Source: Anaerolineae bacterium
GTDB lineage: Bacteria > Chloroflexota > Anaerolineae > Aggregatilineales > Phototrophicaceae
DNA length: 35,563 nt
Direction: 5' to 3'
NCBI GenBank assembly: GCA_017303775.1
Contig: JAFLCH010000001.1
Span: forward strand, 1-35,563
Part shown: piece after piece, positions 3,166 to 32,875 of the stretch
Layout: each line of letters begins with the position of its first letter
Numbering within the stretch: position 1 is the stretch's first letter
Position numbers and translations under genes: made by a program
Notes under the pieces: model-generated
The model's input: only the letters and a program-made list of their open reading frames with translations
Databases searched by the model: none
Told to the model about the DNA's origin: nothing

Positions 3166-3657
3166 ATGACCGAAGAGAAACGATTGACACATGTTGATGA
3201 AACCGGGCGGGCGCGCATGGTGGACGTGGGAGGGAAGCCCGACAGCGAGCGCGTGGCGGTGGCCGAAGGTTATGTGTTTATGCAAGCGGAAACGCTGAAG
3301 CTGATCCGAGATGGGGCGCTCAAAAAAGGAGATGTGCTGACGACGGCACGTCTAGCGGGTATTATGGGGGCAAAGCGCACTTCTGAACTGATTCCGTTGT
3401 GCCACCCGATTCCGCTGACGCATCTGGAAATTGAGCTTGCGCTTGATGAAACAGAGCATAAGGTTATCATCCGAGCGAGCGCGCGAACGATTGGAAAGAC
3501 GGGTGTAGAGATGGAAGCACTGACGGCGGTTACAACGGCGGCACTCACTATTTATGATATGGCGAAGGCTGTTGACCGAGGGATGCGTATCGGAGACATC
3601 CGGTTATTGGAAAAGCGCGGCGGGCAACACGGTGATTATGTAGCAGAGGGCATGTGA
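3166..3657 (+). CDS. moaC: Cyclic pyranopterin monophosphate synthase MoaC
   Basis: MoaC converts the MoaA product (3',8-cyclo-7,8-dihydro-GTP) to cyclic pyranopterin monophosphate, the first stable intermediate of molybdenum cofactor synthesis, in the cytoplasm. The 163-residue protein is of normal length and shows [18 protein letters not shown] at the start, [34 protein letters not shown] in the middle, [22 protein letters not shown] and the late KRGGQHGDY (usually GGkSG). The start is supported by AGGGGGA just upstream. Its stop overlaps the start of the moaD-moaE fusion, so the two are translationally coupled. No moaA is in the window. Confidence 0.97.
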
Positions 3658-10837: not shown

Positions 10838-10879
10838 GCAGGAAGGTTTAATTAATGGGCGTTGAAGAAGCCTTCCTGC
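10838..10879. terminator. Possible hairpin between convergent genes
   Basis: GCAGGAAGG at 10838-10846 and CCTTCCTGC at 10871-10879 are perfect complements separated by 24 bases, between the amidohydrolase stop and the end of the convergent helicase gene. The right arm lies in the helicase coding end and there is no U-tract, so this may be coincidental. Confidence 0.25.
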
Positions 10880-13697
10880 GCCGCTGGAAACAGTTATCGC
10901 AGATCGCAAACTTGTGCTTTAAGGGTAAAGGCCGACCACAACGGGTGCAGCGTTTCATGGCATTGATCTTGTGGAGCAGGGCATGGTCAATCCGCATTGA
11001 CCAATCGGTTCGCATTTCTCGAACATCTCCCTCATAGGGCGCAAATTTGCTAAATTCGCGGCGCTGCGAGAGCCAAAGATAAATATCGGCACAAGCTACA
11101 CAATACTCAATGCTTTCCAGTTCAATGGTATCGGTGATCATTTTGGGCGCGACAGGGGGCAATGGCAATGCTTTGTCTGTGAGGATGTGCCGCGCACATT
11201 GATACCAGTATTCACGCGTGTTTTGGCGCGTGGGTGCATTGACAAGTTTTAAGGCTGCTTCTAAGCCTAGCAGACTGACTTCCCGGTCAGTCAACATGCT
11301 TGCGAGTTCGATACGCTCGGTCATGTCGGCTGTTTCGATAGCACCGCGCAGGGCATCGGGAATGGATTGCAGTGATGCCCATTGGGTGAGTTTGCTAGCG
11401 AGACTGCCGGGGATTAGTTCGAGATCTTCGACTGTGGGGGCTACGCGAGCATGTGTGAGCATGTCTGGCGGTTCGTCAAAGAGACGGCGGATTAACTTTA
11501 GATCCCGCTTACTGATGGCACCAACTTCACCAACGATAGAAAGGCCAAAGCGCCCAGCCCTGCCGCCGATTTGTTGAACTTCGGCGGGGGTTAGAACGCG
11601 CACATTGCGCCCATCAAACTTTTCGATTTCGTAGAAACAAACGTAGTCCGCAGGGAGATTCAGGCCCATTCCTACAGCGTCAGTCGCGATACATATTTCA
11701 GTTTCACCGTTAGCGAAGCGATCTGCTTGTTTTCTGCGTACTTCGGGCGGAAGGTTGCCGTAGACTACAGAGACTGTTCGTTTGAGTTTTTCGAGTTCGG
11801 TTTTGAGGTGGAGGACTGTCTGACGTGAAAAGGCGACCAAGATGGTACGTGGGGGCAGTTCGTGCAGCGGCCAACTGTGCTCGGCAATTTTGATGGGGGT
11901 GAGGCGTTGGTGTTCAACGATCTCGATCGGTATGGCAGCGGCAGCGGCCATTTGTTGAATGAGGCTGCGAACTGTTTCGGGGCCGATTACGTGAATATCG
12001 GGCGCTTCGGCCTCCATTAGGGCGCGAGTCCATGCCCAACCACGATCTGCATCAGCAAGCATTTGGGCTTCGTCAATCACTACGCAGCGACCACTGGCGG
12101 CAGGGTTAAACATCTCTACTGTAGCGGCAGTGATGGAAGCGTCGGCAACCGGGATATGTTCTTCTCCGGTGAGTAGGTTACAGAACACGCCACGTACATT
12201 AAGGCGGTCAAATATTTCAAAGGCTAGCAAGCGCAGAGGGGCGAGATACCAACCACTACCCGCTTCGGCAAGTGCTTCCAAGGCTGCATGTGTTTTGCCA
12301 CTGTTGGGAGGGCCGACATGCAGATAGATGCGCTGATCCGCGCGGCCCTCGTGCCGCCAAGTGGGAAAGGCTGCGACTAACCTCGCTCTGAGGGATGCGC
12401 GGCGTTCTCGTTCTGCGCGGCGTTCTTCCTCAAGTTGTGATTGGTTGGTAAGACGTTCAAGCTCCCGCTCCGCATTGGCGGAGACACGCTTTATTTCGAC
12501 GAGTTCGTGAAACTCACGATAAGTATCCGGTAATTCCAAACGACCTCTAATTTGCCCCCAGTGTGGATCATCCCTGCGAATTCCTAGGCGTTGAAGACGC
12601 CGCCGGACTGTGGCGTAATTGGCATCAATCACTAGCGCGATGTCGTGCAACCGAACTGGTTCGAAAGCTGTGATATGCTCGGCATATTCCGGATTGTCGA
12701 AGGCCGCTTCTACGGCATCGGCGGGTAATCTAAGGCGTCCCTCAGGATCTTCGAAGGCTAGAATACGATCTTCATTAATGGCTTTTTCCAGTGTTGGTTG
12801 GCGGACACCGATTCGTTGGGCAGCACTTGAAATTGTGTAGGTTCGCGCAATGACTTTCATACGGGCCATTTTGCCATCTCGCGCATCGGGTCGTAGAACC
12901 GCACCGCATTTTTCGAGTAATGACTCCCAAGAACTGCGGATTGTTTGGGTGGCTGCTTCACGGGCCAGTTGAGAGTCGGACTCTGCTAAGCGTACCCATG
13001 TGATGGAACGACTATGACGGCCATTATTCGAGATTTGAAACTGCTTTAGATCGGGAAATCCGAGTATGGTGTTGACGGCTTGACCGCCAAACATCTCGAT
13101 CAATTCGGAGAGAGTCGCAGTGTTCCCCGGTTTTTGAGAAAGGTGATTGTGAATACTCTGCCGGATTGGCGCCAGACGATAGAGGGAAGCGGCATGTTTC
13201 ATGCTGCGACTGCTGAGCTTTAGGGGATCGTAGATAAATTCATCAAATTTTTCGATGAACTGCTGTTGAATCAATTCGCCGATGATTGACGGATTGGGTA
13301 GTTGTTGTTGCAGCGTGGTGGTGAGTGAGAACCCATTATTCGTAGATAGATAGTCGAGCAGGTTTTGGGCTGCTACTGCATCCGAGGTGCTGGATAATTG
13401 TTGAGCACGTTCTTGTTCACGTTGAATGACCGGAGGTAATACAAAATCATCTTCCGGGGTTAGATCCGGGAAATACGGGCGCATCCATGCGCGGCGGTTC
13501 ATCAATTCTTGTTGAGTGAGGCGTGAAGTATCGTACCACCACTCTCCGTCACGACTGATATTGTCTTGAAGCAGTGAGTTGTTAATTCCTCGATCCAATC
13601 GAACACGCTGACAAAGGATGTCATAACGGATGCATGCTTCGGGAATGCGAACAATAATATCGCGAATCAATTCTGGAGTGGGTTCAAGTCGTGTCAT
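10848..13697 (-). CDS. SUV3-like DExH/D RNA helicase with N-terminal HTH region and C-terminal zinc ribbon
   Basis: The 949-residue protein carries a helicase core from about 455 to 790 resembling mitochondrial SUV3: Walker A GPPNSGKT (about 464), DEAQ box (about 541) in VVIDEAQMLAD, IATDAVGMGLNLPADYVCF, and motif VI QIGGRAGRFG (about 712). SUV3 unwinds RNA with ATP in RNA turnover. The first 450 residues are unlike SUV3: two segments (YTISSAAQRIGVRQPTLEKA and VRLHDIALVIDANYATVRRRL) look like helix-turn-helix units, followed by an Arg/Glu-rich helix. The C-terminus ends in a four-cysteine ribbon, CTRCG and CDNC, near residues 918-935. It overlaps the upstream decarboxylase gene by 14 bases and ends the long minus-strand run. 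Core assignment is strong; substrate unknown. Confidence 0.85.
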   Translation of the reverse strand: MTRLEPTPELIRDIIVRIPEACIRYDILCQRVRLDRGINNSLLQDNISRDGEWWYDTSRLTQQELMNRRAWMRPYFPDLTPEDDFVLPPVIQREQERAQQLSSTSDAVAAQNLLDYLSTNNGFSLTTTLQQQLPNPSIIGELIQQQFIEKFDEFIYDPLKLSSRSMKHAASLYRLAPIRQSIHNHLSQKPGNTATLSELIEMFGGQAVNTILGFPDLKQFQISNNGRHSRSITWVRLAESDSQLAREAATQTIRSSWESLLEKCGAVLRPDARDGKMARMKVIARTYTISSAAQRIGVRQPTLEKAINEDRILAFEDPEGRLRLPADAVEAAFDNPEYAEHITAFEPVRLHDIALVIDANYATVRRRLQRLGIRRDDPHWGQIRGRLELPDTYREFHELVEIKRVSANAERELERLTNQSQLEEERRAERERRASLRARLVAAFPTWRHEGRADQRIYLHVGPPNSGKTHAALEALAEAGSGWYLAPLRLLAFEIFDRLNVRGVFCNLLTGEEHIPVADASITAATVEMFNPAASGRCVVIDEAQMLADADRGWAWTRALMEAEAPDIHVIGPETVRSLIQQMAAAAAIPIEIVEHQRLTPIKIAEHSWPLHELPPRTILVAFSRQTVLHLKTELEKLKRTVSVVYGNLPPEVRRKQADRFANGETEICIATDAVGMGLNLPADYVCFYEIEKFDGRNVRVLTPAEVQQIGGRAGRFGLSIVGEVGAISKRDLKLIRRLFDEPPDMLTHARVAPTVEDLELIPGSLASKLTQWASLQSIPDALRGAIETADMTERIELASMLTDREVSLLGLEAALKLVNAPTRQNTREYWYQCARHILTDKALPLPPVAPKMITDTIELESIEYCVACADIYLWLSQRREFSKFAPYEGDVREMRTDWSMRIDHALLHKINAMKRCTRCGRPLPLKHKFAICDNCFQRRRKASSTPIN

Positions 13698-15003
13698 TTT
13701 GAGTCATTGTGATGTTGTCAGCCGGAATAGGATAGAACTGATCCGGCTTAAAGGATAATGTTGCAAAATAGTCTTCGGTTGTTTCTTGTCTTCGAATTAA
13801 GCTCACTGTGCCGTCTGGTTTGAGCAGAAGTTCTTTTGGGCGAAGACGTCCATTATAGTTGAAACCCATCGCATGACCATGCGCTCCCGTGTCATGAATG
13901 ATGATTAAATCTCCTACAATGGTTGCTGGTATTTGACGCTGGATAGCGAATTTATCATTGTTTTCGCAGAGAGAGCCTACTATATCTACACATTCTTGTT
14001 CATCTGCTTCTGTTTTTTCGAAGACTTCAATATGATGATATGCACCGTACATAGCGGGGCGCATGAGAGATGACATGGATGCATCAACACCAACATACTG
14101 GCGGTAGGTGTTTTTACGGTTGATGACTGTTGTGACCAAGACTCCACTCGGGCCGGTTATATAACGACCGCTTTCAAGATATAAGCGTGGTTCAAACCCA
14201 TTTGTTTGGCAGAAGGTGTGTAATTGTTCTGTGATTGCGTCAGCCATAGACTTTAGGTCTAGCGGGAAATCTTCAGGATGGTAAGGTATTCCTAGCCCTC
14301 CACCCATGTTGATGAATTCCAATTTAATACCTAGATCGCTCGATAGTTCCTGTGCTATTTCGAGGAGCATTTCCACAGTCTGAACCATATAGTTGTGGTT
14401 GCGTTCGTTGGAGATGATCATTGTGTGCAAGCCAAAACGGCTTATACCTGCTTCATGAGCAGCCCGATATGCGACTTCTATTTGATGATGGGTAATGCCG
14501 AATTTTGATTCGATCGGCTGCCCAATTATGCTGTTCCCAACCCTACGATCTCCCGGATTGTAGCGAAAACTTATCAGATCCGGTTTGTGGGGCAATCTGT
14601 TCAACATCGATAAATCATCAAGGTTAAGGATACACCCCCCATCCGCAAAGGCGACTTCAAGTTCGGCAGAACTTGTGTTGTTGGATGTAAACATGATGTC
14701 AGAACTAGCGGCGCCTGATTGCCTCGCTAGATGTAGTTCGGGGATCGAACTACAATCAAAACCGCAACCCATTTCAGAGATCAAGCTGAGTATGGAAGGA
14801 TTTGGGAGTGCTTTGACGGCAAAGTACTCTTTGAAGTCGGTTACATTCGAGAATGCCTCGATTAACTCCCGACATGTTTCCTTGATACCCACCTCATCAT
14901 AGATGTGAAAAGGTGTGCCATAATGTGCAGCGATTTGTGGTAATAGGGGGAGGAGGCGCTGCTTAAAACCGAGTGACATGGGCATAATGCGAAACCAATC
15001 CAC
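13684..15003 (-). CDS. lysA: Fold-III PLP decarboxylase, diaminopimelate decarboxylase-like
   Basis: The protein belongs to the alanine-racemase-fold decarboxylases; LysA makes L-lysine from meso-diaminopimelate. Visible are the PLP lysine K64 in YFAVKALPNPS, GFDCSSIPEL, LEFINMGGGLGIPY (phosphate-binding Gly loop near 232-238), LESGRYITGPSG, GSLCENNDKFA (the CExxD substrate motif of LysA as CENND) and HDTGAHGHAMGFNYNGRLRPKELLL. The usual HxGS motif is HTMIISN, resembling a divergent LysA branch. The first start is GTG 15003; ATG 14985 or 14979 would remove 6-8 residues; none has a clear ribosome site. It lies 35 bases after a lipoprotein gene and overlaps the helicase. A role in lysine synthesis or in supplying a building block to the neighbouring envelope cluster are both possible; substrate assignment is moderate. 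Confidence 0.75.
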   Translation of the reverse strand: MDWFRIMPMSLGFKQRLLPLLPQIAAHYGTPFHIYDEVGIKETCRELIEAFSNVTDFKEYFAVKALPNPSILSLISEMGCGFDCSSIPELHLARQSGAASSDIMFTSNNTSSAELEVAFADGGCILNLDDLSMLNRLPHKPDLISFRYNPGDRRVGNSIIGQPIESKFGITHHQIEVAYRAAHEAGISRFGLHTMIISNERNHNYMVQTVEMLLEIAQELSSDLGIKLEFINMGGGLGIPYHPEDFPLDLKSMADAITEQLHTFCQTNGFEPRLYLESGRYITGPSGVLVTTVINRKNTYRQYVGVDASMSSLMRPAMYGAYHHIEVFEKTEADEQECVDIVGSLCENNDKFAIQRQIPATIVGDLIIIHDTGAHGHAMGFNYNGRLRPKELLLKPDGTVSLIRRQETTEDYFATLSFKPDQFYPIPADNITMTQNDTT

Positions 15004-15038: not shown

Positions 15039-15422
15039 TTAGGGTGCCTCACCACACCACTTCCACTGGCCGTCTTCCTGTGTAACGGTGTAATTCACAA
15101 GCGGGAAATCTGTATTTTCTCCGTTGTAATCTGCAACGATTGCTCCACTACAGGTTACAACATTACTGTTCTCCGTATATTGACAGACCATATCATTGAT
15201 CTGTGCTTTTACACCGCTGAATGATAATGCTTCACGATCCAGATTGGCTTCTTGGATAGAGCAGATTAGACCCGCTAAGGTATCCCGGTCTCCTGCAACT
15301 TTGGCTTGCAGGTAGCGCTGCACGACATCTACTGGATCGGATGAAGCTGTTGGAGGACCTGTACCGCAGGCACTCATAAGAATGGTGGTGAGTATGATAA
15401 AAATGATGAATGACGCTTTCAT
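15039..15422 (-). CDS. Small lipoprotein, NTF2-like in layout
   Basis: A 127-residue protein with a lipoprotein signal: a charged start, hydrophobic helix and lipobox LMSAC with Cys19. The mature part reads VQRYLQAKVAGDRDTLAGLIC near its start and VNYTVTQEDGQWKWCG at its end, a layout reminiscent of DUF4878/NTF2-like lipoproteins, with several cysteines (ICS, VCQY, VTCSG, WCGE) that could form disulfides outside the cell. Its start overlaps the upstream SGNH gene by ATGA, so it is cotranslated with it. No function can be assigned. Confidence 0.75.
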   Translation of the reverse strand: MKASFIIFIILTTILMSACGTGPPTASSDPVDVVQRYLQAKVAGDRDTLAGLICSIQEANLDREALSFSGVKAQINDMVCQYTENSNVVTCSGAIVADYNGENTDFPLVNYTVTQEDGQWKWCGEAP

Positions 15423-16621
15423 TCATTAACCTCAACGTTCAATTTTTCGTATATCTGATTAAGCACACATATTGATAGCAGGTTATGTAGACTTACCCCA
15501 TAGAAGGCTTCATGCCCTGTGTCATATTTCAGGTAATCGAACCCACTCACCTTCAAATGTACTTTGTCCTGATCCAAACCAAAATCTGGCAGAATTCTCG
15601 CTGCTGCCCAAAGGTTAATTAAGGGTGTCTGATATTCTTCAGTTAATGCTACCAGTTTCAAGTTAAAGTTGATAGATTGCCAAAAAAATTCTTCATCGGG
15701 ATGCGCGCTGAAAGTCGAGATCACAGGAATTATACCGTGCGCTAGTGTGGCTTCGATTAGTGACCTCATCTGTGTTTCGTACTTGTCCTCTGTCATACTT
15801 CGGACATCATTTGGACCGAACATCAGAAAGGAGATCGCTGGTTTTTTTAACCGATATTCACAGTTAAGCGGTGATTCATTTGGCTGACATTGTTCTTTAT
15901 CCGCCCAGAGCGGATCGAAAACCGCATAGGTGCTAAGCCCGATTCGTGCTGCAACACTATCTGTGATACCTGCACGTGTGTAGAAGTCGAGCGCTGGAGC
16001 GAGATAGTCGTATGGGCCAAGTTCACGGCGGGTGTTTGCAAGAGGAATCAAGTATTGGTTAGACGCGCTGAGACTATCACCCACTTTGGTGATCACATGG
16101 CTCTGATTACCCAAGGACTGCCCCAAGTTGAAGATCTCAATCATTTCATCCGAGATGATAGGCAAAATGGGTGCTTGATAAAGCTTAGCCATGGATTGAC
16201 TGTTGACATTTGAAGGCTGGGAATCGAGTAAAGTGCTGTTGACCGGAATTGTGCTGAATTGAAGATCGGTATCACGGTTCAAGTATGCTGAGATAACCCA
16301 ACCATCTTGAACAACATTTTCGGCTTCATCGACACGTTGAATGCGCACCCAAATGCCGGTTTGATTTCTTTCGACAACACGAATTTCTAGACCGGGATTC
16401 AGGAAACCTGTTTGTTGAAAGGTATCTCCTGGGCCAGCATAAATAACTGCGCGGCGAAACGCTGTGGCGACCGAAATGGGCGATGGGGCGAGCAGAGGGG
16501 TGATTAAACCCGTGAATAAAAATGGTAGTGCTATGCAAAAGCCTATTTGCTTGAACACAATAAGCACCTTTAGCATTGAAGTGTTATTCTGCAATGTAAG
16601 TCTGCCATTCGAATTGTTCAT
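15419..16621 (-). CDS. Exported SGNH hydrolase with SH3-like domain
   Basis: An N-terminal hydrophobic segment (residues about 17-50) is a signal or anchor. Residues about 55-115 look like a bacterial SH3 domain (AVIYAGPGDTFQQTGFLNPG, WVRIQR, DGWVISAYL), usual for cell-wall or polymer binding. The rest is SGNH/GDSL-like: KVGDSLS with the candidate nucleophile Ser, FLMFGPNDV as block III, and DKVHLKVSG as the DxxH block. Such enzymes are extracytoplasmic esterases or acyl transferases. It overlaps the acyl ligase upstream (ATGA, 4 bases) and the lipoprotein downstream, so it belongs to the acylation operon and may hydrolyse or transfer the same acyl group. Confidence 0.8.
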   Translation of the reverse strand: MNNSNGRLTLQNNTSMLKVLIVFKQIGFCIALPFLFTGLITPLLAPSPISVATAFRRAVIYAGPGDTFQQTGFLNPGLEIRVVERNQTGIWVRIQRVDEAENVVQDGWVISAYLNRDTDLQFSTIPVNSTLLDSQPSNVNSQSMAKLYQAPILPIISDEMIEIFNLGQSLGNQSHVITKVGDSLSASNQYLIPLANTRRELGPYDYLAPALDFYTRAGITDSVAARIGLSTYAVFDPLWADKEQCQPNESPLNCEYRLKKPAISFLMFGPNDVRSMTEDKYETQMRSLIEATLAHGIIPVISTFSAHPDEEFFWQSINFNLKLVALTEEYQTPLINLWAAARILPDFGLDQDKVHLKVSGFDYLKYDTGHEAFYGVSLHNLLSICVLNQIYEKLNVEVNE

Positions 16622-18309
16622 GGGTCTTGTTTCATTTGCTTTTCAGCCATCCATTTTTCGCGGTTTTTACCACGGGCAATTTTGCCGCTGGATGTTTTGA
16701 TTAGCCAGCCTTTGTTCACCAAGGTGACAAAATTTACCGTGACGCTGCTTTGGCGCACAACTTGTTGGCGAATTGCCTGTGAGATTTGCTTTTGTGCTGT
16801 TTTGTCTGTAGTTTCGACCTCGGCAACAACCGCGATTAATTCCGTGCCTTCCGCTGCATCCGGTACACCGAACACGACTACCCGACCGGGATGTATTCCT
16901 TCGATGGTATTGACGACGGCTTCAATATCCTGCGGATAGATGTTTTTACCGGCATTAATGATGAGATCTTTGCTGCGACCGACAATATAGATTTCGCCAG
17001 CTGCAATATAACCCTGATCACCTGTTCGATACCAGCATTGATCATCGAACGGGTTGAGATCAGGACGTTTGAAGTACCCACTAAGCATAGAGTCGCTTCT
17101 TACCAGAACTTCCCCAATGTGACGATCCGGAAGCGTTTTACCATTGGCGTCCACTACTTTTACTTCAACGTTGGGGATGGGAGCACCGCAGGAGACTATG
17201 CTTGTGGTTGAATTGTTATCAGATTCTGTCGGAATGGCTTGTTTTTTTTGTCGCAAATTATCCAAGCTTATTGTATCGATTGCTGGATAATGCCCCGGTT
17301 TTGTTTGTGTAACGGCAAACGTGTTTTCGGCCATTGCATAGCTTACTGTAAACATGTCCATGCGTATCCGATTGGCGGCAAATCGTTCTGCAAACATGAG
17401 ATGACTTTCATGCTGAACAGGTTCGGAGCAATTGATGAAGGCACGGATAGTTGATAAATCTAATGAAGCTGTGTCACTTTGGCGAATGGCGCGTGTAGAG
17501 TGGTTGTAGGCAAAGTTAGGGAGCCAGCACAAAGTCGCACGATAGTCATGGATTGCTCTGAGAAGCATCGCTGGATGGCTTACCCAATCGAAGGGGGACA
17601 TTAACACGAGAGGGATGCCCTGTATCAGCGGTTGGAGAAATCCAGCAATTAAGCCCATATCATGATAAAGTGGCAGCCAACTCACAATGATGTCCTCTGA
17701 TGTTAACTTGAGGGCATCGGCGTAACTTGCCAATTGATTCAATATCGCTTTGTGCGAGAGTGCTACACCTTTTTGAAGCCCGGTTGTTCCACTTGAGTGT
17801 TGCAAGAGCGCGATATCAGAGGGTGAGCTTTTATAGGCGTGGGGTATTTGGGGTGCAGTGGATAGGAGAAGTTCCTCACTACTATATACGGGACATAGTA
17901 GTTTTGATTTAAGCCGGGACGCAAAGTGATCAGTCGTGAGTATTGCTTTCACCCCTGAGATGTGAACCAACTCACCTAAATCTCTCATATATATGTCAGG
18001 ATCCAGTTTCTCTGTGAGGGTGGGGAACATCGAAGGGATTGCTCCTAACCACAATGCTCCCCAAAAGGCATAAATACTCTCAAGGCTTTGTGTATGGGCG
18101 ATGATGACTAGATCACCAGCCGCGATGCCTAATTTTGCCATAGATGCGGCGTGGGTGAGTACATGCATCTTAAAATTATTGCGATTTACGGTGATTGGTT
18201 CTGCTGTGGTAGAGAGATAAATTATCGCAGGTAGAGATTCCGCGCCCGAATGTAGAGGGATAGCATCCAGCAGCGTATGGAAGTTGTTGCGAGTGGCTCC
18301 TGTCAGCAT
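16618..18309 (-). CDS. AMP-forming acyl ligase, fatty-acyl-AMP-ligase-like (DltA position)
   Basis: An ANL-superfamily enzyme of about 563 residues that would activate a carboxylic acid with ATP and load it on a carrier protein. Motifs are LLQHSSGTTGLQKGV (phosphate loop), SWLPLYHDMGLIAGFLQPL, PNFAYN, YAMAENTFAV, YRTGDQGYI, GRSKDLIINAGKNIYPQDIE and the C-terminal KTSSGKIARGK with the adenylation lysine. The LPLYHDMGLI and MSP...PNFAY pattern is that of fatty-acyl-AMP ligases rather than of D-alanine ligase DltA. The open frame extends upstream to 18462 but that would lie inside the acyl-carrier gene; the ATG at 18309, six bases after that gene, is the better start. Operon position corresponds to dltA. 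Acyl substrate unknown. Confidence 0.87.
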   Translation of the reverse strand: MLTGATRNNFHTLLDAIPLHSGAESLPAIIYLSTTAEPITVNRNNFKMHVLTHAASMAKLGIAAGDLVIIAHTQSLESIYAFWGALWLGAIPSMFPTLTEKLDPDIYMRDLGELVHISGVKAILTTDHFASRLKSKLLCPVYSSEELLLSTAPQIPHAYKSSPSDIALLQHSSGTTGLQKGVALSHKAILNQLASYADALKLTSEDIIVSWLPLYHDMGLIAGFLQPLIQGIPLVLMSPFDWVSHPAMLLRAIHDYRATLCWLPNFAYNHSTRAIRQSDTASLDLSTIRAFINCSEPVQHESHLMFAERFAANRIRMDMFTVSYAMAENTFAVTQTKPGHYPAIDTISLDNLRQKKQAIPTESDNNSTTSIVSCGAPIPNVEVKVVDANGKTLPDRHIGEVLVRSDSMLSGYFKRPDLNPFDDQCWYRTGDQGYIAAGEIYIVGRSKDLIINAGKNIYPQDIEAVVNTIEGIHPGRVVVFGVPDAAEGTELIAVVAEVETTDKTAQKQISQAIRQQVVRQSSVTVNFVTLVNKGWLIKTSSGKIARGKNREKWMAEKQMKQDP

Positions 18310-18313
18310 TTTG

Positions 18314-18565
18314 TTATTGAATGTCGCGAAGAATTCGAGCGACCATTTGGTTGAGTGTATCCATTTTTGCGACTGTGAGATCAGGATCGGGAATATAGAC
18401 TCCAAATGCCTGCTCGACAAATACTCCAATTTGAGCAAGGGAAAAAGAGTCGATGAGACCACCTGTTACAACACCTTCATCGTCCGCTAGATCATAATCA
18501 GGATCACGAATAAGATCCTTGACGATAAATGTGCGCAAATTTTCCCGAACTGTTTGCTCGTCCAT
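18314..18565 (-). CDS. Acyl carrier protein (DltC-like position)
   Basis: An 83-residue acidic four-helix carrier protein. The phosphopantetheine site is GGLIDSFSLAQI with Ser40 in the DS motif, followed by an F-V-E-Q-A-F-G-V segment and acidic helix III. It would receive the acyl group from the adjacent ligase as a thioester and present it to the MBOAT protein at the inner membrane face. The start lies one base after the stop of the SGNH gene, with AAGGA 11 bases upstream; the acyl ligase follows after 4 bases. This tight placement makes it the dedicated carrier of the cluster, distinct from the fatty-acid-synthesis ACP. Confidence 0.9.
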   Translation of the reverse strand: MDEQTVRENLRTFIVKDLIRDPDYDLADDEGVVTGGLIDSFSLAQIGVFVEQAFGVYIPDPDLTVAKMDTLNQMVARILRDIQ

Positions 18566-18566
18566 G

Positions 18567-19721
18567 TTAATTTGTATCCTTTAGTTCATTCAGAAAATTG
18601 TTGAGTACGATCATTACTTTTTCACTCAGCAATTGTGACCCAATTTCATCCATATGCACGGGACTATCGGTAAATCTTTCAGGCGGAATTTGGTTCCAGA
18701 GGTCAATGTAGTTCCATTGATTTTGCTCGGATTGTTGTTGAAGCATATCGCGGTATCGATCGTATGCCCACTGTGGATACCAAAAATTATAGTGCAGATC
18801 ACTATTAGCACCATCAGCTATGTAAATCGGCTCGTTGATGATGATGGTAGGGATTTGAGTTGGAAGTTTTTTGGAAGCGGATAGAACCGAAAAGGCTAAA
18901 TCTGCTTCGATGAATGGTTCATCGATGGTAAAGGTATGCCATTCAGTGTCTTGATCAAAATCATTACTGCGAGGTTCAAACCCCCTTATTTGTTGATCTA
19001 TGCCGGTATTGGACCAACCTATACCAAAGAGTTGTAATCTCCACCAATCTGCCAATGCACGTCGTTGACCCAATAGTGTTTTATCCCAGATATTAGGATG
19101 CACCAAGCGAGCATCATTCATATCTAAATCTAGTCCGTATTCTTCATGAAGGCGCTGAAGGTGCGAGACATTGTTTTGCAGAATTGGAGAGGCAAGTTGA
19201 TCAGATATCGGAAACGATTCTAAGGTGACTAGCCACAGTATCAGATCAGGTTGATATCGCGTGGCAAACTCCAAGAATATGAAGTCTTTTGTAAGGGATA
19301 GAGTGGGATAGCCAAGATTGTAGAAAACGATCTTTTTACCTTCGAATGTCAGAAGCTCTCTGTTTAGGTAGCCTGTTAGGGTGGATGGGTTAGTAAGTAG
19401 TACCCCCCACACCGCCGAATCCCCAATTACGGCTACACGGAACTCATCAGGGGCTTTAATACGTGCAATATTATGGGAGGCGAACATGGCATCAAGGTTG
19501 TAGAGACTTAAGTTATATGCTTCGGGAGATTCACCATAAGGGAGGCGTTCGCGCCCCGGTACGAGTATGTTGTAAATGCTTATGCGACCAATGATAGGTA
19601 GTGGCTGTAAGATCCAAAATATAAGGTTGACTAGCAGGAACAACAAACCAGCCTTAGCTATAACACGCACAATAAATGAGCGCGTGTAGTTGTAGCGTGT
19701 GAGCCATTCCCAGCCAATCAA
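18567..19721 (-). CDS. Membrane-anchored SGNH acyltransferase-like protein (DltD position)
   Basis: One N-terminal membrane helix (residues about 15-40) is followed by an extracytoplasmic domain. FRVAVIGDSAVWGVLL contains the GDS motif with the candidate nucleophile Ser, and DSPVHMDEIGSQLLSE near the C-terminus supplies the Asp-x-x-His pair. Proteins of the DltD/AlgX type take an acyl group from the MBOAT step and put it on a cell-envelope polymer. The open frame reaches upstream to 19883, deep into the MBOAT gene; the TTG at 19721 overlaps the MBOAT stop as TTGA and has GGGGTGG five bases before it, so this start (384 residues) is preferred. It is followed by the carrier protein after one base. 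Confidence 0.85.
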   Translation of the reverse strand: MIGWEWLTRYNYTRSFIVRVIAKAGLLFLLVNLIFWILQPLPIIGRISIYNILVPGRERLPYGESPEAYNLSLYNLDAMFASHNIARIKAPDEFRVAVIGDSAVWGVLLTNPSTLTGYLNRELLTFEGKKIVFYNLGYPTLSLTKDFIFLEFATRYQPDLILWLVTLESFPISDQLASPILQNNVSHLQRLHEEYGLDLDMNDARLVHPNIWDKTLLGQRRALADWWRLQLFGIGWSNTGIDQQIRGFEPRSNDFDQDTEWHTFTIDEPFIEADLAFSVLSASKKLPTQIPTIIINEPIYIADGANSDLHYNFWYPQWAYDRYRDMLQQQSEQNQWNYIDLWNQIPPERFTDSPVHMDEIGSQLLSEKVMIVLNNFLNELKDTN

Positions 19722-21166
19722 GGTGCCACCCCGAACAAGGCTAAAAATAAGCGAAATGCTGAGGATAGATCGGACGATACGAACCAAACCCATCCTAGCA
19801 CGACAAAATGAAACGTGAGGATAACACCTGTCCAGCGCCAAGCTGCATCCCGTCCGGGATGTTGACGTAGACGGCGTAACCAAGCCCTTGTATGATCACT
19901 CCATACCTTGTGTATGAAGAGACCTATACCATGCCATAATCCCCATACGATGAACGGTAAGGTGATTCCATGCCAGATGCCGATTGTTAACATGGTGGCC
20001 AATGTGGATATTAACAAGATTATATTTACATGATTTTTGTAGCGACTGCGAAGCAATTGGCGGGAAAGAGGGGAATAGACATATGTGCGTACCCATGAAC
20101 TGAGTGTCATGTGCCAACTTTGCCAAAAGGTGGTAATAGTGTTCTTTAGGTAGGGGCGATTGAAGTTTTCGGGCAGTTGTATGCCCCAAAGTATCCCTAT
20201 GCCTATGGCGATATCAGTATATCCGCTGAAATCGAAGAACAACCGTAATGCATATGCATAGAGCATCAGCCATAAGGCTGGTGCGGATAATGCTTGATCA
20301 ATGCTTGTGTGGCTTAGACTGATGATTGCTAGCGAATCCGCAATAAAGAATTTTTTGAATAATCCTATGCATATACGTGCTGCTGCTTCTGTAAAGCGAT
20401 TCGCTTCAAACGGATTGTATTTTTCTATGGCTCTAAAATCGTTCAAAAAGCGTTCAACACGATCGATTGGGCCGGCAGTAAATGCAGGGAAGAAAATAAC
20501 GTAGGTTATAAATTCTCTAAGTGATAAGTCTGGCAAGATACCTGTCTGCCAGTCCCGTATCGTATGAATTAGGCGGAATGCAACATAAGAGAATCCGAGC
20601 CACTGTATATCAATGACTGATGCAATTCCTGTATCTTGCCCGGTTTGCTGACGTAAAAACACACTCAAGTGAATGGATAGAACTTCGGACTTTATGATGA
20701 TCAGGAACGCTAAAATGATGAGTAATAGTAGTATGGCCGTCCAGCGGAAGCTAATCAAGTAAGAACCTAATGGCAGTATGATGATCAAGGCTATTATGAT
20801 AGTAATTACTTGCCAGATTTCCGGTGGGCGGGATGTTAGGGCTATTGGGAAATCGAAGTAGCGGGGAATGGTTAGAAGTAGAATGATGGCGAGTATGATT
20901 ACTAAGCTTGTACTGTCTTCGCGAGATAGGGCAGTAATGGGGGAAATCTTCTTTTCCCGCGAAGCCACTACCCACCATGTGATTACAGATATTCCAATAA
21001 TGATGCTCGGAAGTGTGTAATCAAGCCAGCGAATACTCAGCGATGGTTGCAACCAATAGATGATGATCAATGATATAACGAATAATACCCATTTACGCCA
21101 TTGGGAAGGCAGTAGGGCATTGACTAAGCTGATGACAACCAGAACCGCTATTTGCGCAATTTCCAC
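19718..21166 (-). CDS. MBOAT O-acyltransferase (DltB/AlgI family)
   Basis: A 482-residue polytopic membrane protein of about 11-12 helices. Family landmarks are FFPAFTAGPIDRVERFL, LRLFFDFSGYTDIAIGIGILWGI, NFNRPYLKNTITTFWQSWHMTLSSW and the catalytic-histidine segment GIWHGITLPFIVWGLWHG. DltB and AlgI move an acyl group across the membrane from a cytoplasmic thioester. In some systems the C-terminus of the MBOAT itself bears the acyl-shuttle peptide; this one ends LFGVAP and has none, consistent with the separate microprotein just upstream. Start is GTG 21166, three bases after the microprotein stop. Confidence 0.93.
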   Translation of the reverse strand: MEIAQIAVLVVISLVNALLPSQWRKWVLFVISLIIIYWLQPSLSIRWLDYTLPSIIIGISVITWWVVASREKKISPITALSREDSTSLVIILAIILLLTIPRYFDFPIALTSRPPEIWQVITIIIALIIILPLGSYLISFRWTAILLLLIILAFLIIIKSEVLSIHLSVFLRQQTGQDTGIASVIDIQWLGFSYVAFRLIHTIRDWQTGILPDLSLREFITYVIFFPAFTAGPIDRVERFLNDFRAIEKYNPFEANRFTEAAARICIGLFKKFFIADSLAIISLSHTSIDQALSAPALWLMLYAYALRLFFDFSGYTDIAIGIGILWGIQLPENFNRPYLKNTITTFWQSWHMTLSSWVRTYVYSPLSRQLLRSRYKNHVNIILLISTLATMLTIGIWHGITLPFIVWGLWHGIGLFIHKVWSDHTRAWLRRLRQHPGRDAAWRWTGVILTFHFVVLGWVWFVSSDLSSAFRLFLALFGVAP

Positions 21167-21169
21167 GCC

Positions 21170-21289
21170 TTAGAACCCTTGATATATCCATTGAGGCGCG
21201 GAGTCAGCAGTCATAATTAAAAGCAGAATGATTAACGCGGACAAAAAAAGAGCGAAGACGTTTTCACGAGTTATCATTCGTCGAAGCAT
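21170..21289 (-). CDS. 39-residue membrane microprotein with C-terminal WIYQGF (DltX-like)
   Basis: A small open frame between the FHA regulator and the MBOAT gene. It has a basic N-terminus (MLRRMITRE), one membrane helix (about residues 11-27) and a short tail, ADSAPQWIYQGF, on the presumed outer face. In Dlt systems the microprotein DltX ends in a conserved peptide containing YNEF, whose Tyr carries the acyl group from DltB to DltD; here the spacing aromatic-x-Tyr-x-x-Phe at the very C-terminus is the same. Position directly before the MBOAT gene, with a gap of three bases, supports the role. A start at ATG 21277 would give 35 residues. No good ribosome site is visible, so expression rests on coupling. 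Function is inferred. Confidence 0.7.
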   Translation of the reverse strand: MLRRMITRENVFALFLSALIILLLIMTADSAPQWIYQGF

Positions 21290-24111: not shown

Positions 24112-26628
24112 TTATCTGGCTTTACTAACTACATCTACTAATTCTTGGTCATGCGGATCGGTTTTCTTACTTTTCAGTATTGCCCAGATGATTACACCTA
24201 GAAGGGCGATCATCACGATGATAACCGGCAACCGATTCGCTTCTGATCCCGGAGCTGCCATTGTTACGACCAAGGGTGCGGCCAAGAGCGCAACCAAGTT
24301 GACCACTTTAATCATAGGATTAAGAGCAGGGCCGGCAGTATCTTTGAATGGATCACCAACAGTGTCACCTACTACAGCAGCTTTGTGCGGATCAGACTTT
24401 TTTCCACCATAGTGACCTTCTTCAATGTACTTCTTTGCATTATCCCAAGCTCCCCCAGCATTGCTCATGAAAACTGCCATCAATTGACCTGCCAAGATGA
24501 TGCCAGCTAAGAATCCACCGAGCGCCGGCGCGCCGAGCAAGAAACCGACAACTATGGGCGTCAGCACGGCAATGATGCCGATGGGCAGTAGTTCGCGCTG
24601 GGCAGCCTGTGTTGAAACCCCTACACATTCAGCATAGTCGGGTGTTTTCGTGCCTTCCATGATTCCGGGAATGCGGAGTTGCTTGCGAACTACGCCGATC
24701 ATCTGGAACGCTGCACGATTAACCGAACGGATGAGGAGGCTGCTGAACAAGAAAATCAAACCACCTCCTAAGAGGAAACCGATAAACACTATCGGCTCAG
24801 CAATATTGATGCCCGTTCCGAATAGGGTTCGTTCTAGCGGAATGCCTAGACCAAGCTGGACAACACGCGTGTCTGTGAGGAATGAACCGAAGAGCGATAC
24901 TGCGGCGATCACCGCAGAGCCAATTGCCACCCCTTTGGTAATCGCTTTTGTAGTGTTGCCAACCGCATCAAGTGAATTGAGAATTTCACCACCCTGACCG
25001 CTACTCTCACCAGCTAGTTCGGCTACACCCTGAGCATTGTCTGAGATTGGACCGAAAGCATCCATTGACACATTGTTGCCTGTGAGCGTAAGCATTCCGA
25101 TCCCGGTCATGGCTACCCCATAGAGAACGGCTGTGAATGTATCAACAATTTGCACACCGCTTCCATCGGTGATAGGGAACAATCCGAAGATTGCTACACT
25201 TGCCAAAATGCTTCCGGCGATGACTACAATTGCCCAAACACTGCTTTCCATACCACTGGACAAGCCACTCAAGATAGTGGTGGCTGGCCCTGTCTGGGTA
25301 TTGCGGGCGATTTCTTTTACAGGCGGATGCTCGGTGTCGGTGAAATAGGCAGTTACTTTATCGATGACAATAGCAAGTGCTACACCAACCAGAACCGCAG
25401 CTAATGGCTGCCAGATGACTACTCCTTGATTGATGTTTGGATCTACCATATAGAAGAGCGTGAATAAACCAAACATGACAGCACTGATAGCAGCGGCGCT
25501 GTAGAATCCTCGTGTGATAGCCCCCAGTGCATCTTTGCCGCTGGTTGATTTGACCAAATAGGTGCTAATGATCGAGGAAAGCACACCGATACCTCGAACT
25601 ACCAGTGGGAACACGATCCAGATTGGGCTGCGGGTAACGGTAGCGAGGGCAAGCCCTAAGATTAAGCCGGAAACGATGGTTACTTCGTAGCTTTCAAAGA
25701 TGTCGGCTGCCATACCAGCGCAGTCGCCAACATTGTCTCCCACGAGGTCTGCGATCACAGCTGCGTTTCGCGGATCATCTTCAGGTAAATCTGCTTCAAC
25801 CTTACCGACCAAATCGGCACCTACATCTGCTGCTTTTGTGTAGATACCACCACCGACACGCATAAACAAAGCAAGTAAGGTTCCACCAAAGCCAAAGCCG
25901 AGCAGTGCATCGGGAGAAGCGATACCGAAGATAATAAAAAGGATGGTTCCTCCGAAAAGGCCTAAACCATCTGTCAACATTCCGGTAATTGTTCCGGAAC
26001 GGTATGCGATTCTTAGGGCGTCCCCATAGCCTCGTTTAGGATCAACGGCGGCCGCTGCTACACGGACGTTGCCTTGTACTGCCATATTCATGCCAACAAA
26101 ACCCACAGTGGCTGAGAAAATAGCTCCCATAAGGAATGCGCCTGCACGCCCTAAAGCAATGTTGATACGAGCGGAGTTGCAGGCCGACGCACCTTGTTGG
26201 ACGATGGTCGCTTCTTCGGCATAAACAACAGCATTTTCTTCGAGTAAGGCTAATTCTGCTGCTGGTAAAGTGGCGTTTTTGGCTACAACTTGTTCACGGA
26301 TGTTTTCTGCATTGATGCTTTGTCGCGCACTCTCAGCAATTTCAGGGCAGAAATGTTCTATAGCATATGGCGTTGGATTAACCACATAGACACTGAAAAA
26401 TAATACAACAACCAATATTGCAATTAGCACAACAATGATCCGAAACTGAGAACGCAAATAAGCGTTTGCTCCAGTGCGGATGTATCCCCATACCTCCTGC
26501 ATTTTGGCCGATCCTTTGTTTTCAGAAAGGATTTGCCTTGCCAATAACGCCGCATAAATCAAACCCGCAATTGCTATCCCTAAAACTATGAGAATAAGCA
26601 CATTTTCGGTTGAGTTTAACGCACGCAT
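24112..26628 (-). CDS. hppA: Membrane pyrophosphatase, K+-independent H+-pumping type, with extra loop
   Basis: Hydrolyses cytoplasmic pyrophosphate and pumps ions across the membrane. Motifs are [57 protein letters not shown], and [17 protein letters not shown]. The K+-site reads GNTTKAIT (24938-24961): Lys with Thr three residues on, the signature of K+-independent H+-PPases. At 838 residues it is about 130 longer than usual; an approximately 80-residue segment after helix 2 (from NPTPYAIEHFCPEI to GASACNSARIN) holds two cysteines and should face outside. The open frame extends up to 26808, but that leader is Lys/Arg-rich and lies in the divergent promoter region; ATG 26628 with GGAG 11 bases upstream is preferred. 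Divergent from the second hppA. Confidence 0.93.
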   Translation of the reverse strand: MRALNSTENVLILIVLGIAIAGLIYAALLARQILSENKGSAKMQEVWGYIRTGANAYLRSQFRIIVVLIAILVVVLFFSVYVVNPTPYAIEHFCPEIAESARQSINAENIREQVVAKNATLPAAELALLEENAVVYAEEATIVQQGASACNSARINIALGRAGAFLMGAIFSATVGFVGMNMAVQGNVRVAAAAVDPKRGYGDALRIAYRSGTITGMLTDGLGLFGGTILFIIFGIASPDALLGFGFGGTLLALFMRVGGGIYTKAADVGADLVGKVEADLPEDDPRNAAVIADLVGDNVGDCAGMAADIFESYEVTIVSGLILGLALATVTRSPIWIVFPLVVRGIGVLSSIISTYLVKSTSGKDALGAITRGFYSAAAISAVMFGLFTLFYMVDPNINQGVVIWQPLAAVLVGVALAIVIDKVTAYFTDTEHPPVKEIARNTQTGPATTILSGLSSGMESSVWAIVVIAGSILASVAIFGLFPITDGSGVQIVDTFTAVLYGVAMTGIGMLTLTGNNVSMDAFGPISDNAQGVAELAGESSGQGGEILNSLDAVGNTTKAITKGVAIGSAVIAAVSLFGSFLTDTRVVQLGLGIPLERTLFGTGINIAEPIVFIGFLLGGGLIFLFSSLLIRSVNRAAFQMIGVVRKQLRIPGIMEGTKTPDYAECVGVSTQAAQRELLPIGIIAVLTPIVVGFLLGAPALGGFLAGIILAGQLMAVFMSNAGGAWDNAKKYIEEGHYGGKKSDPHKAAVVGDTVGDPFKDTAGPALNPMIKVVNLVALLAAPLVVTMAAPGSEANRLPVIIVMIALLGVIIWAILKSKKTDPHDQELVDVVSKAR

Positions 26629-26855
26629 TTTTCGAACGTCTCCATTGAAATGTAGAAATCTAACAAACAACCGCACTAGTTTGTGAGAAAAATTTATCTT
26701 TCTTTCTTCTCCTCTTCTACTTATTCTTCTTCGGCTCAAGTTTAGCTCGATTTTGAAATAACCAGTAAATTTGCTTACCAGTTTATTTTTTTTTAATTTT
26801 CGATACAATTCTGCGTTCAGCAGATCAGATATATCTCAAGGAGTAGACATAGAAG
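26629..26855. promoter_or_regulatory. AT-rich divergent promoter region between the two hppA genes
   Basis: This 227-base gap is unusually AT-rich, with pyrimidine-rich and A/T runs (for instance TTTTTTTTTAATTTT near 26786-26800). TACAAT near 26804-26809 is a fair plus-strand -10 box, and AAGGAG stands about 12 bases before the ATG at 26856. No confident minus-strand promoter was identified. The long leaders leave space for shared control of the two pumps. Confidence 0.4.
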
Positions 26856-28985
26856 ATGGAATTTCTTATCGATAATGCAAGTTGGATTGCTCTTGTAGCA
26901 TCCATTATTGGCATTGGCTTTGCTCTGTATACGCGAAGCTGGATTTTGCAGCAGGATGCGGGCGACGCTAAGATGGCGAAAATCGCAGGCGCTATCCAGA
27001 AAGGTGCTCAGGCGTTTCTTTCAACAGAATATCGTTATATCGCGACGTTGGGCGCTGTAGTTGTTGTAGCACTTTTGATACTTAGCGCGATCCCCGGCTC
27101 AGGAATGAGTCCTTGGACAGCGGTTTGTTTCGTGGCTGGTGCGGGTGCTTCAACCTTAGCGGGTTATATTGGTATGAATGTCGCGGTACGAGCGAATGTG
27201 CGCACAACGATGGCTGCATCAAAAAGCTTGAACAGCGGTTTGCGGGTGGCTTTTGCCAGCGGCAGTGTCATGGGAACTATGGTGGTAGGACTTTCACTCT
27301 TGGGTGTCAGCATTCTATACATCGTACTCACAAAGGTTATTTATCCTGTTGGTGAAGATCCCTCAACGAGCCTTGTCAATATACGCGCTGCAGCGAGTGC
27401 TTTAGCAGGATTTGGATTTGGTGGCACTTCGGTTGCCATTTTCGCCCGCGTTGGTGGCGGTATTTTTACCAAGGCAGCAGATGTCGGCGCAGATCTGGTC
27501 GGCAAGACAGAGGCTGGTATTCCTGAAGATGATCCGCGTAATCCGGCTGTTATCGCTGATAATGTTGGGGATAACGTTGGTGATGTTGCTGGTATGGGTT
27601 CTGATTTGTTTGAAAGTTATGCTAGCTCTATCATTGCGGCGATTGCGATTGCCGGGTTAGGTGGGGCAGGGGTAGCAATTGAGAAAATTCCTGCGGCGGA
27701 AGCATTTCCTATTCTTGTTGCCGCATTTGGTTTGTTCATCAGCATGGGCTGCACATATCTTGTTCGAACAAAAGAAGATGCAACACAGGAGAGCTTGTTA
27801 GGCAGCCTGAGACTCGGTGTCTATAGTGCGAGTGTTCTGGTAGCCGTTGCGGTGGTTATCCTTGGCCTCGTCCTTGAGCTAGGATTTGGTGTGATTATTG
27901 CGACGATTAGCGGGTTGGTGGCTGGCGTCGCGATTGGATATATCACTGAATACTATACATCTGATATTTATCGCCCGACGCGGCAAATTGCTGACAGTTC
28001 AGTTAGTGGGCCAGCAATTGTGATCATTCGTGGTCTGGCAGTTGGAATGGAGAGCACCGCAGGCCCGGTTATCGTTGTCGTACTCGCGACGCTGGTCGCA
28101 ATTGGCTCGGCTGGACTATATGGTGTGGCTGTTGCGGCTGTCGGCATGTTGGCGACGTTGGGTATTACATTAGCAACCGATGCTTATGGGCCGGTAGCTG
28201 ATAATGCTGGTGGTATCGCCGAAATGTCGGGCTTGGGCGAAGAGGTACGGAATCGTACTGATGCTCTGGACAGCCTTGGTAATACAACGGCTGCCACCGG
28301 TAAAGGATTTGCAATCGGGAGTGCTGTGATGACGGCGCTCGCACTTATCTCTGCATTTGTTACTGCAACCGGGATTAATCCGCAAGTCAATATTCTTGAT
28401 CCCCATTTGCCTACGGGCATGATGATTGGCGCTATGTTACCGTTTGTTTTCAGCGCACTGACAATGGTGGCCGTGGGTAAGGCTGCACAGGAAATCGTTC
28501 TCGAAGTGCGGCGTCAATTCAAAGAAATCCCGGGGCTGATGGAAGGAAAGGCCGACCCTGACTATGAAGCTTGTGTTGGTATCAGCACCAAGAGCGCTAT
28601 TCGTCAGATGATCCTGCCGGGTGTGATTGCTGTTTCAGTTCCTATTTCAATTGCCATCCTAGTTGTTGCTGGACGAGGTAATGATCTGGCGCGGTATGTT
28701 GATGTTTATACGCTGGTCGGTGTATTACTTGGTTCTCTGATTTCCGCATTTACGTTGGCTGTAATGATGTCTAACGCAGGTGGTGCATGGGATAACGCCA
28801 AGAAGTATATTGAGCGCGGTCATCTGGGCGGTAAGAAGTCGGATGCTCATAAAGCAACGGTTGTGGGTGATACAGTGGGTGATCCGTTCAAGGACACTTC
28901 AGGGCCATCATTGAACATATTGCTGAAGCTTCTGGCAATTGTAGCGTTGGTGATTGCTCCGTTACTCGCGTCCGGCGCTGTCTAG
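26856..28985 (+). CDS. hppA: Membrane pyrophosphatase, K+-dependent type (H+ or Na+ pump)
   Basis: A 709-residue pyrophosphatase of typical length: [86 protein letters not shown] and [19 protein letters not shown]. The K+-site reads GNTTAATG (28279-28302): Ala with Gly three residues on, the signature of K+-dependent enzymes. Glu in DLFESY of helix 6 is the arrangement found in Na+-pumping members, but K+-dependent H+-pumps share parts of it, so the ion is undecided. Ends in front of a strong terminator. Confidence 0.95.
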
Positions 28986-30596: not shown

Positions 30597-31748
30597 TTAG
30601 ATTTGTAGAATATGACTCACTGCTGTGCTACCAAGTCCACCAAGATTCTGGATTAATGCGACTTTGGCATTGGGAACCTGATTGGAACCGGCTTGACCGC
30701 GGAGCTGCAAACATGCTTCTACGGCTTGATAGACACCCGTGGCTCCGCCCGGATTGCCTCTCGCTTTTAGACCCCCGAATGTGCTGATAGGGAGTGATCC
30801 ATTCAATCCGATAACAGATGGTTGAGCTAATTTCCAACCTTCACCCCGATTGGCAAAAGTTATTGCTTCTAAAGTGAGTGCCGTCAGGATGGTAAAAGCG
30901 TCATGGAGCTCGAATAAGTCAACAGCATCTTTTGTGACACCTGCTTTAGCGAAGGCTTTGTGTGCTGAAATATTGGACGCTTTTAAGTAGAGTGGATCAC
31001 TGCGATCTGCAAGCGCGAGTGTATCGGTGGCTACCGCACTTGCGGTTAAACGAACCGGCATTGGAACCATATCCACAGCCCGGTCTAAGCTGGTTATTAC
31101 TATAGCAGCGGCTCCATCCGCATCAGGGGCGTTGTCGAAAAGATTGATGGGTTCCGATATCATCGGAGCAGATGCAAAACGACCGGGCTTAATGAGGTTT
31201 TTAAACATTGCATTCTGGTTGCGATTGCCATTGGCGTGGGCATTAATGCTGAAACCTTCGAACGCATTCAGATCCAGATTGTATTCGTGCATGTAACGCC
31301 GCATGAGCATTGCTGCCATGGCTGTGAGCGTTGCGCCGTGGGCAGCTTCATAATCCGCATCCAAACTAACCGATCTTGCTTCTACCCGAGCACTAGCGAG
31401 CGTGTCGGTTGATTTTTCTACCCCAAGAACTAAGGCTGTTTCAATTGCGCCCGATGCTACCGCCAGATAAGCTGTGCGGATGGCCGCACCCCCAGATGCT
31501 TCGGCAGCCTCTACCGTGAAGGCTTCGATGTTTGCAAGACCAGCATGGTCAGCTATGAGTGCGCCAAGCTGAGTTTGGCTACTATAGCTACTGCCATAAG
31601 CATTACCTACATAAAGGGCATCGACCTGTTCAATACCCGCATCTTCAAGTGCGAGATAGATTGCTTCTGCGGCGAGTGTTCGTAAACCGCTTGTCCAATG
31701 TTCCCCAACAGGGATCTGCCCAATTCCGATTATCGCTAGGTCGCGCAT
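30597..31748 (-). CDS. SCPx/archaeal-type thiolase lacking the catalytic cysteine
   Basis: A 383-residue thiolase-fold protein like the archaeal acetoacetyl-CoA thiolase of the mevalonate pathway: MRDLAIIGIGQIPVGEH, ALVLGVEKSTD, LFELHDAFTI (H282), FGGLKARGNPGGATGVYQ and IQNLGGLGST. The nucleophile position, normally VE.ACASGG, is VEAAEASGG with Glu83 (codon GAA at 31502-31500), and the GHP histidine is Asn332 (codon AAT). The fold is otherwise well kept, including the second histidine, so this is not a decaying gene. It lies six bases after HMG-CoA synthase on the same strand. Classical Claisen condensation by the cysteine mechanism looks impossible; scaffold or decarboxylative roles are open. 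Confidence 0.88.
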   Translation of the reverse strand: MRDLAIIGIGQIPVGEHWTSGLRTLAAEAIYLALEDAGIEQVDALYVGNAYGSSYSSQTQLGALIADHAGLANIEAFTVEAAEASGGAAIRTAYLAVASGAIETALVLGVEKSTDTLASARVEARSVSLDADYEAAHGATLTAMAAMLMRRYMHEYNLDLNAFEGFSINAHANGNRNQNAMFKNLIKPGRFASAPMISEPINLFDNAPDADGAAAIVITSLDRAVDMVPMPVRLTASAVATDTLALADRSDPLYLKASNISAHKAFAKAGVTKDAVDLFELHDAFTILTALTLEAITFANRGEGWKLAQPSVIGLNGSLPISTFGGLKARGNPGGATGVYQAVEACLQLRGQAGSNQVPNAKVALIQNLGGLGSTAVSHILQI

Positions 31749-31754
31749 TTGTAT

Positions 31755-32837
31755 TTAGTCCTTGAGTTTGCCACGATATCTGCAATAGGTTGCGTAATCA
31801 ATCTGGGTACGCCGACGAAGGTAATCTTGAGTGAGGGGCGCACGGTTGCGCACAGCTTCAATTCGTTCAGTTACACGAATGTCAAATGCGTCGGAACCGG
31901 CTCCACTCCCGTAGCTCACCATAAGGATACGGTCGCCGGGTTTGGCTACGTCAAGTATAGCTGTAAGCCCCAACATGCAGGAGCCAGAATAAACATTACC
32001 GATCAGACCCGCTAAAAGACCCGGTTTGATTTGCTCATCATTGAACCCAAGCATTTCAGCCGCGCGACTGGGGAATTTTACATTCGGCTGATGGAACACC
32101 GCATAGGTGTAATCCGATGCTTTCGTTCCCATCATATCCATGAGCGATTGGGCGGCAGAGAGTACATGATTGAAATAGGCAGGTTCGCCTGTGAATCGAT
32201 CTCCATGACTGGGATAATTTTCGCCGGGACGCCGCCAGAAGTCGGGGGTGTCGGTTACATAGCTATAGCTTCCCTGATAGATTGCACATGCTTCTTCTGC
32301 TGGCCCGAGGAGGAAGGCTGCTCCACCGGAGGCGGCGGTATATTCCAACGCATCACCGGGACGACCTTGAGCCGTATCCATACCGATGCTGAGCGCATAG
32401 GCAGCCATGCCGCTGCCGATCAAGCCGATTGAAGCCTGGACGGCCTCAGTCCCTGCCTTACAGGCAAATTCCCAGTCGGCGGCTTGAATGTTGGGGGAAG
32501 TGCCGATACTTTCTGCAACAATAGTACTGGTTGGCTTGACCGCGTAGGGGTGGCTTTCGCTGCCAACCCAGACAGCTCGTATGAGCGTAGGATCGATAGC
32601 GGCACGGGCAAGAGCATTACGCGCGGCTTCGATGGACATGGTTGTAACATCTTCGTCCAATCCGGCAACCGCTTTTTCGACAATCGGGCTTCCGCCTAAG
32701 CCATTTGTCCAGATGCGAGCGACTTCTGTGCCGGGAAGCCGATAGCGAGGAATGTAAGCCCCGTATCCGACTAATCCTACTGGTCGATCAGGCCGCATTA
32801 AATTGGCGGCGTTCATATGGGTTCCGTTGAATGACAT
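31755..32837 (-). CDS. Hydroxymethylglutaryl-CoA synthase, archaeal type
   Basis: Makes HMG-CoA from acetoacetyl-CoA and acetyl-CoA. The 360-residue protein has the archaeal pattern [28 protein letters not shown] with catalytic Glu94, [15 protein letters not shown] with nucleophile Cys126, [36 protein letters not shown] with His249 and [13 protein letters not shown]. All catalytic residues are present. AAGGA is seven bases before ATG 32837; internal ATGs at codons 8 and 14 are possible. It lies between the reductase and the thiolase and, by analogy with the archaeal complex, may form a channel with the thiolase and DUF35 proteins. Confidence 0.95.
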
Positions 32838-32875
32838 CAGTTTATCCTTATGACCCTGTTTAAACTGTTTGAGGG

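Follow-up and report, generated by a model that had tools for sequence, protein, structure and literature searches.

The Dlt system of the Firmicutes (DltX and DltA to DltD), which attaches D-alanine to teichoic acids, consists of an AMP ligase, a carrier protein, the MBOAT protein DltB, a separate microprotein with a C-terminal tyrosine and a membrane SGNH protein. No other system has been described in which a carrier protein goes together with a free-standing shuttle microprotein (PMC12148441). Acyl-tyrosine intermediates are carried by the FxYxxF tail of DltX and of PatA, and the MBOAT/SGNH pathways other than Dlt are said to lack a carrier and a microprotein (PMC12148441). The closest of these other pathways are PatA/PatB and AlgI/AlgJ/AlgX O-acetylation, in which an MBOAT and an SGNH protein likewise work with acyl-tyrosine shuttle chemistry; in PatA and AlgI the MBOAT itself carries the motif as a fusion, and PatA takes its acyl group from acetyl-CoA. 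The alginate system has two SGNH proteins. Stand-alone fatty acyl-AMP ligases (FAAL) with an adjoining gene for their cognate carrier are, on the other hand, known from polyketide and lipopeptide synthesis.

The operon described here lies in an Anaerolineae bacterium, on contig JAFLCH010000001.1 of assembly GCA_017303775.1, of which a stretch of 35,563 nt was analysed as a whole (the window). All the components listed above for Dlt have their counterparts in it. It differs from Dlt, however, in having a FAAL-type ligase instead of DltA, a WxYxxF tail, a first SGNH protein (SGNH1) outside the DltD family and without the DxxH aspartate, and, in addition, a second SGNH protein (SGNH2) and a lipoprotein. 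Unlike in PatA and AlgI, the motif, the carrier and the ligase are encoded by separate genes. With the FAAL-carrier pairs it shares the stand-alone FAAL next to a carrier gene, but there is no synthase, the partner is a DltB-like MBOAT, and Trp and Ala are found at acyl-pocket positions. The operon is a counterexample to the statement on non-Dlt MBOAT/SGNH pathways cited above. No paper linking an MBOAT with a FAAL was found in the open-access literature. As judged from its sequence, the operon probably encodes a trans-envelope acylation machine with the architecture of Dlt and a FAAL-type front end. Profile matches do not place it within the Dlt families; that it works like Dlt is held with moderate to high confidence. 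With a second machine of this kind that has a different front-end ligase, the exporting core would prove to be modular and open to other acids. The machine would also offer a way into the surface chemistry of a large bacterial class, about which little is known, and its ligases would form a natural set with which to learn what acyl groups can travel by way of MBOAT and microprotein.

Layout of the operon

Five minus-strand genes were listed in the preliminary description of this DNA: those of a microprotein, an MBOAT, an SGNH protein of the membrane, a carrier and an AMP-forming ligase, with no gap or overlap of more than four bases at any junction. All five are present in this order and the junctions hold once two starts are corrected: a gap of 3 bases between microprotein and MBOAT, a 4-base overlap (TTGA) between MBOAT and SGNH1, and gaps of 1 base between SGNH1 and carrier and of 4 bases between carrier and ligase. 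The corrected starts are those of SGNH1 (TTG 19721) and of the ligase (ATG 18309), which were re-set by alignment with relatives; the longer open reading frame of SGNH1 is an artefact, its true start lying inside the TTGA overlap. To call these five genes the complete operon was, however, an undercount. SGNH2 (15419–16621, minus strand) and the lipoprotein (15039–15422, minus strand) are also members, since the ligase and SGNH2 genes, and again the SGNH2 and lipoprotein genes, overlap by four bases (ATGA) and both additional genes recur in relatives. The lipoprotein (127 aa) has no Pfam family over the cut-off; in relatives its gene is a conserved neighbour of that of the microprotein. The minus strand shows no terminator-like site within the operon.

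Microprotein, MBOAT and SGNH proteins

The DltX-like microprotein (21170–21289, minus strand) is a separate protein of 39 aa with one transmembrane stretch and an FxYxxF-type C-terminal tail, PQWIYQGF. The form of the tail is WxYxxF rather than the published FxYxxF: in the relatives, in which PxWIYQGF is near-invariant, the Pro, Ile, Tyr and Phe are kept in 84 of 84, and the first position is Trp instead of Phe in 83 of 84. That the tail is not due to chance follows from this invariance, from the third codon positions, which vary while the peptide stays constant, and from a pattern search, in which 21 of 301 genomes of the phylum had DNA encoding WIYQGF and a stop, and none had the reversed pattern used as a control. 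In sampled genomes the exact pattern adjoins the MBOAT gene; among the best 80 loci a tail lies immediately upstream of the MBOAT gene in 54, and in the remaining loci holding one it is mostly within about 2.5 kb. The profile search for the DltX family PF12459, which had been proposed as a check, gave no match to the microprotein, nor was there any other Pfam match in the search of the window, so that the identity of the microprotein rests on motif, size, the single transmembrane stretch and gene context.

The MBOAT (19718–21166, minus strand; 482 aa, GTG start) matches PF03062 with 95.7 bits and the DltB equivalog TIGR04091 with 228 bits (E = 2e-67), which is below the cut-off of 375. The only relatives of its family profile in the PDB are DltB structures (6bug, 8jem), which bears out its assignment as the DltB counterpart. 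His352 and His399 are invariant in the relatives and align to His289 and His336 of solved DltB, which are the catalytic residues there. None of the operon MBOATs carries a terminal F/WxYxxF fused to its C-terminus, whereas four ordinary MBOATs in the same loci (L044, L134, L137) end in a fused FIYFQF. The class to which the window belongs thus runs both shuttle layouts.

SGNH1 (18567–19721, minus strand; 384 aa, TTG start) is membrane-anchored and, in the window, scarcely recognised by Pfam; the GDSL model is weakly matched by 44 of 53 relatives. Its AlphaFold2 model (pLDDT 94.9) retrieved SGNH folds with Foldseek, DltD (7dxm, 3bma) among them. The top-ranked matches are esterases and the TM-scores are all modest; among the best matches DltD 7dxm gives the longest alignment (375 columns) and the highest query-normalised TM-score (0.40). 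Since the predicted fold matches DltD with most of the length aligned, the view of this protein as the DltD counterpart was upheld, with the proviso that only the fold is common to both: PF04914, the DltD family, was found in none of 41 genomes of the class. In a survey of 61 sequences the GDS motif, the His and the Asn of NEP are each present in all 61. The aspartate of DxxH is absent, Ser being found there in 53 of 61. SGNH enzymes usually have this aspartate, and catalysis by SGNH1 is therefore uncertain; SGNH2 may take part in the transfer or complete it, in the manner of the alginate system with its two SGNH proteins, or be an esterase. SGNH2 (400 aa) has an N-terminal transmembrane or signal segment, an SH3 domain (SH3_3) and an SGNH hydrolase fold (PF13472), and it is a conserved neighbour. 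Its AlphaFold2 model (pLDDT 91.8) leads with Foldseek to the standard SGNH fold and to SGNH esterases. In the window, GDS and DxxH are both present. In the family as a whole (n = 65) the nucleophile is Ser, as in the window, in 38 members and Cys in 27, and the His is kept in 64. Of 42 relatives 18 have an SH3 domain and 2 a LysM domain, which suggests the cell wall as the location and does not point to the acceptor itself.

Ligase, acyl group and acceptor

The carrier protein (18314–18565, minus strand; 83 aa) has the DSF phosphopantetheine site, which is invariant in 47 of 47 relatives. It reaches only 13.3 bits with DltC (TIGR01688; cut-off 52.35), and its best model is that of an ornithine-lipid acyl carrier protein (36 bits). 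The ligase (16618–18309, minus strand; 563 aa) scores 347 bits with the fatty acyl-AMP ligase model NF006624, below the cut-off of 600, and 351 bits with a sister model that bears the name long-chain CoA ligase. DltA is not among its best 25 models, so that the preliminary description was right in considering it not DltA-like. In the PDB it matches LpFAAL (3kxw, 349 bits) and also the FAAL 3pbk, and for 16 of 16 ligase relatives FAAL models rank best or second. The activating enzyme being different from that of Dlt, the chemical group that is attached and the surface polymer that receives it are probably different as well.

The following scheme is proposed from the gene set, the motifs, the predicted folds and the co-occurrence. 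The ligase would adenylate a carboxylic acid and attach it to the carrier's phosphopantetheine arm. On the cytoplasmic side the MBOAT would receive the acyl group from the carrier and pass it, via His352/His399, to the Tyr of WIYQGF outside, whereupon the tail of the microprotein would bring it to the active-site Ser of SGNH1. SGNH1 would then transfer it to a polymer on the outside, perhaps peptidoglycan or a polymer bound to it, and SGNH2 is probably a second transferase or a trimming esterase. Because the operon holds both a carrier and a microprotein, the most economical course would be from ligase to carrier, then to the Tyr of the microprotein and finally to the Ser of an SGNH protein.

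The acid itself is probably a short one and probably other than an amino acid; its short length is suggested by the residues at the acyl-pocket positions. At the position of the acyl-pocket Gly, which is present in all groups except the acetyl-CoA synthetases (PMC6122825), the ligase family has Ala in 65 of 66 members, and a Trp kept in 66 of 66 (in the window Trp262 counted from the ATG start, or Trp313 in the 614-aa open reading frame) lies two positions after a residue at the end of the FadD23 pocket and maps to the acyl tunnel; the pocket residues of FadD23 were taken from PMC9989471, and the mapping, by an ungapped numbering offset between two anchors, is deduced from sequence. It is against this Trp and Ala that a medium-chain or long-chain fatty acid must be weighed, in which case the ligase and carrier would serve to lipidate a surface polymer or a protein. 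Such acids are the usual substrates of FAALs (PMC11837247), and the ligase aligns with LpFAAL and EcFAAL through the FAAL-specific insertion region; nevertheless, we regard a longer acid as unlikely. Still less probable is the addition of D-alanine or another amino acid as in Dlt, with a ligase resembling FAALs in appearance only. The architecture of Dlt and the DltB-like MBOAT would agree with it, but the ligase, which has the fatty-acid ligase motif HDMG, scores much lower with the amino-acid adenylation model (119.5 bits) than with that of FAALs, and DltA (TIGR01734) is over the cut-off in 0 of the 41 class genomes, two control genomes being over it.

Canonical DltX is also absent from the class: PF12459 is over the cut-off in 0 of the 41 genomes, the controls B. 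subtilis and L. lactis being positive. TagF-type polymerases (PF04464) are found in 3 of the 41 and absent from 38. The earlier statement that Chloroflexota make no classical teichoic acids was looked at via DltA, DltD, DltX and TagF only, and it agrees with the first three and with most of the genomes for the fourth. It should be mentioned separately that one genome of the same class (G136, contig 25, 99829–103124) has a DltA-like ligase (215 bits) adjoining a distant MBOAT, possibly a true DltA-type operon. In its most specific form the preferred explanation is a widespread envelope modification of the Chloroflexota, in which a short non-amino acyl group, supplied by a FAAL and its carrier, is transferred by a DltX-type Tyr shuttle and a relay of two SGNH proteins to peptidoglycan or to a non-teichoic polymer bound to it; we give this form an even chance of being correct. 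If it is true, donor and acceptor would both be new to any Dlt or Pat system.

Distribution and linkage in the Chloroflexota

Close relatives of the MBOAT, defined as those over 300 bits, were found in 26 of the 301 phylum genomes searched, all of them of the class of the window. The usual gene order in these loci is lipoprotein, microprotein, MBOAT, SGNH1, SGNH2, carrier, FAAL. A scan of 84,980 species yielded 80 best loci, nearly all from genomes titled Chloroflexota and one from a Bacteroidetes MAG. As to the neighbourhood survey that the preliminary description had suggested, the gene set is conserved and the exact order of the window recurs in its nearest relatives (L060, L061, L109), but in many MBOAT loci the ligase and the carrier are not beside the MBOAT.

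Nevertheless, MBOAT and ligase occur together. Of the 26 MBOAT genomes 24 have a matching FAAL, the exceptions being G055 and G176, and one other genome of the class has the FAAL without the MBOAT (Fisher test within the class, p = 7e-7 with no correction for kinship). Relatives with the MBOAT and SGNH genes and no ligase, carrier and microprotein, which would have spoken against an operon of this type, are therefore not the pattern. In 33 genomes picked for an MBOAT locus without FAAL, a FAAL was found elsewhere in 30. The carrier gene adjoins 17 of these 30 unlinked FAAL genes and a microprotein gene adjoins four, and these four are genomes without a microprotein at the MBOAT locus. This displacement of the microprotein is the strongest evidence from sequence that microprotein, ligase and MBOAT probably share a function. 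That FAAL and carrier belong to another pathway, for example of lipids or polyketides, while MBOAT and SGNH proteins use acyl-CoA and the grouping is coincidental, would fit the many genomes in which they are unlinked, but is very improbable in view of the co-occurrence in 24 of 26, of the four displaced microproteins and of the same local gene set across many families.

The surroundings of the operon were also considered for clues to the acid and the polymer. In some relatives other genes are interspersed among those of the MBOAT, the carrier and the FAAL; they are mixed and without conservation, and the flanks differ among families, so that neither was informative. LysA, which is encoded 3' of the operon together with a SUV3-like RNA helicase with an S14-like tail (10848–15003), was rejected as part of the system, where it might have supplied lysine as the acyl group, because it matches the housekeeping equivalog above the cut-off and adjoins the operon only in the close relatives L060, L061 and L109, to which the LysA/helicase order is confined. 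Elsewhere in the window a ThiS-MoaE fusion adjoins MoaC (3166–4409), two genes for membrane proton pyrophosphatases (898 and 709 aa) are adjacent and divergent (24112–28985), and a thiolase, an HMG-CoA-synthase-like protein and an HMG-CoA reductase form a mevalonate-type block (30597–34189).
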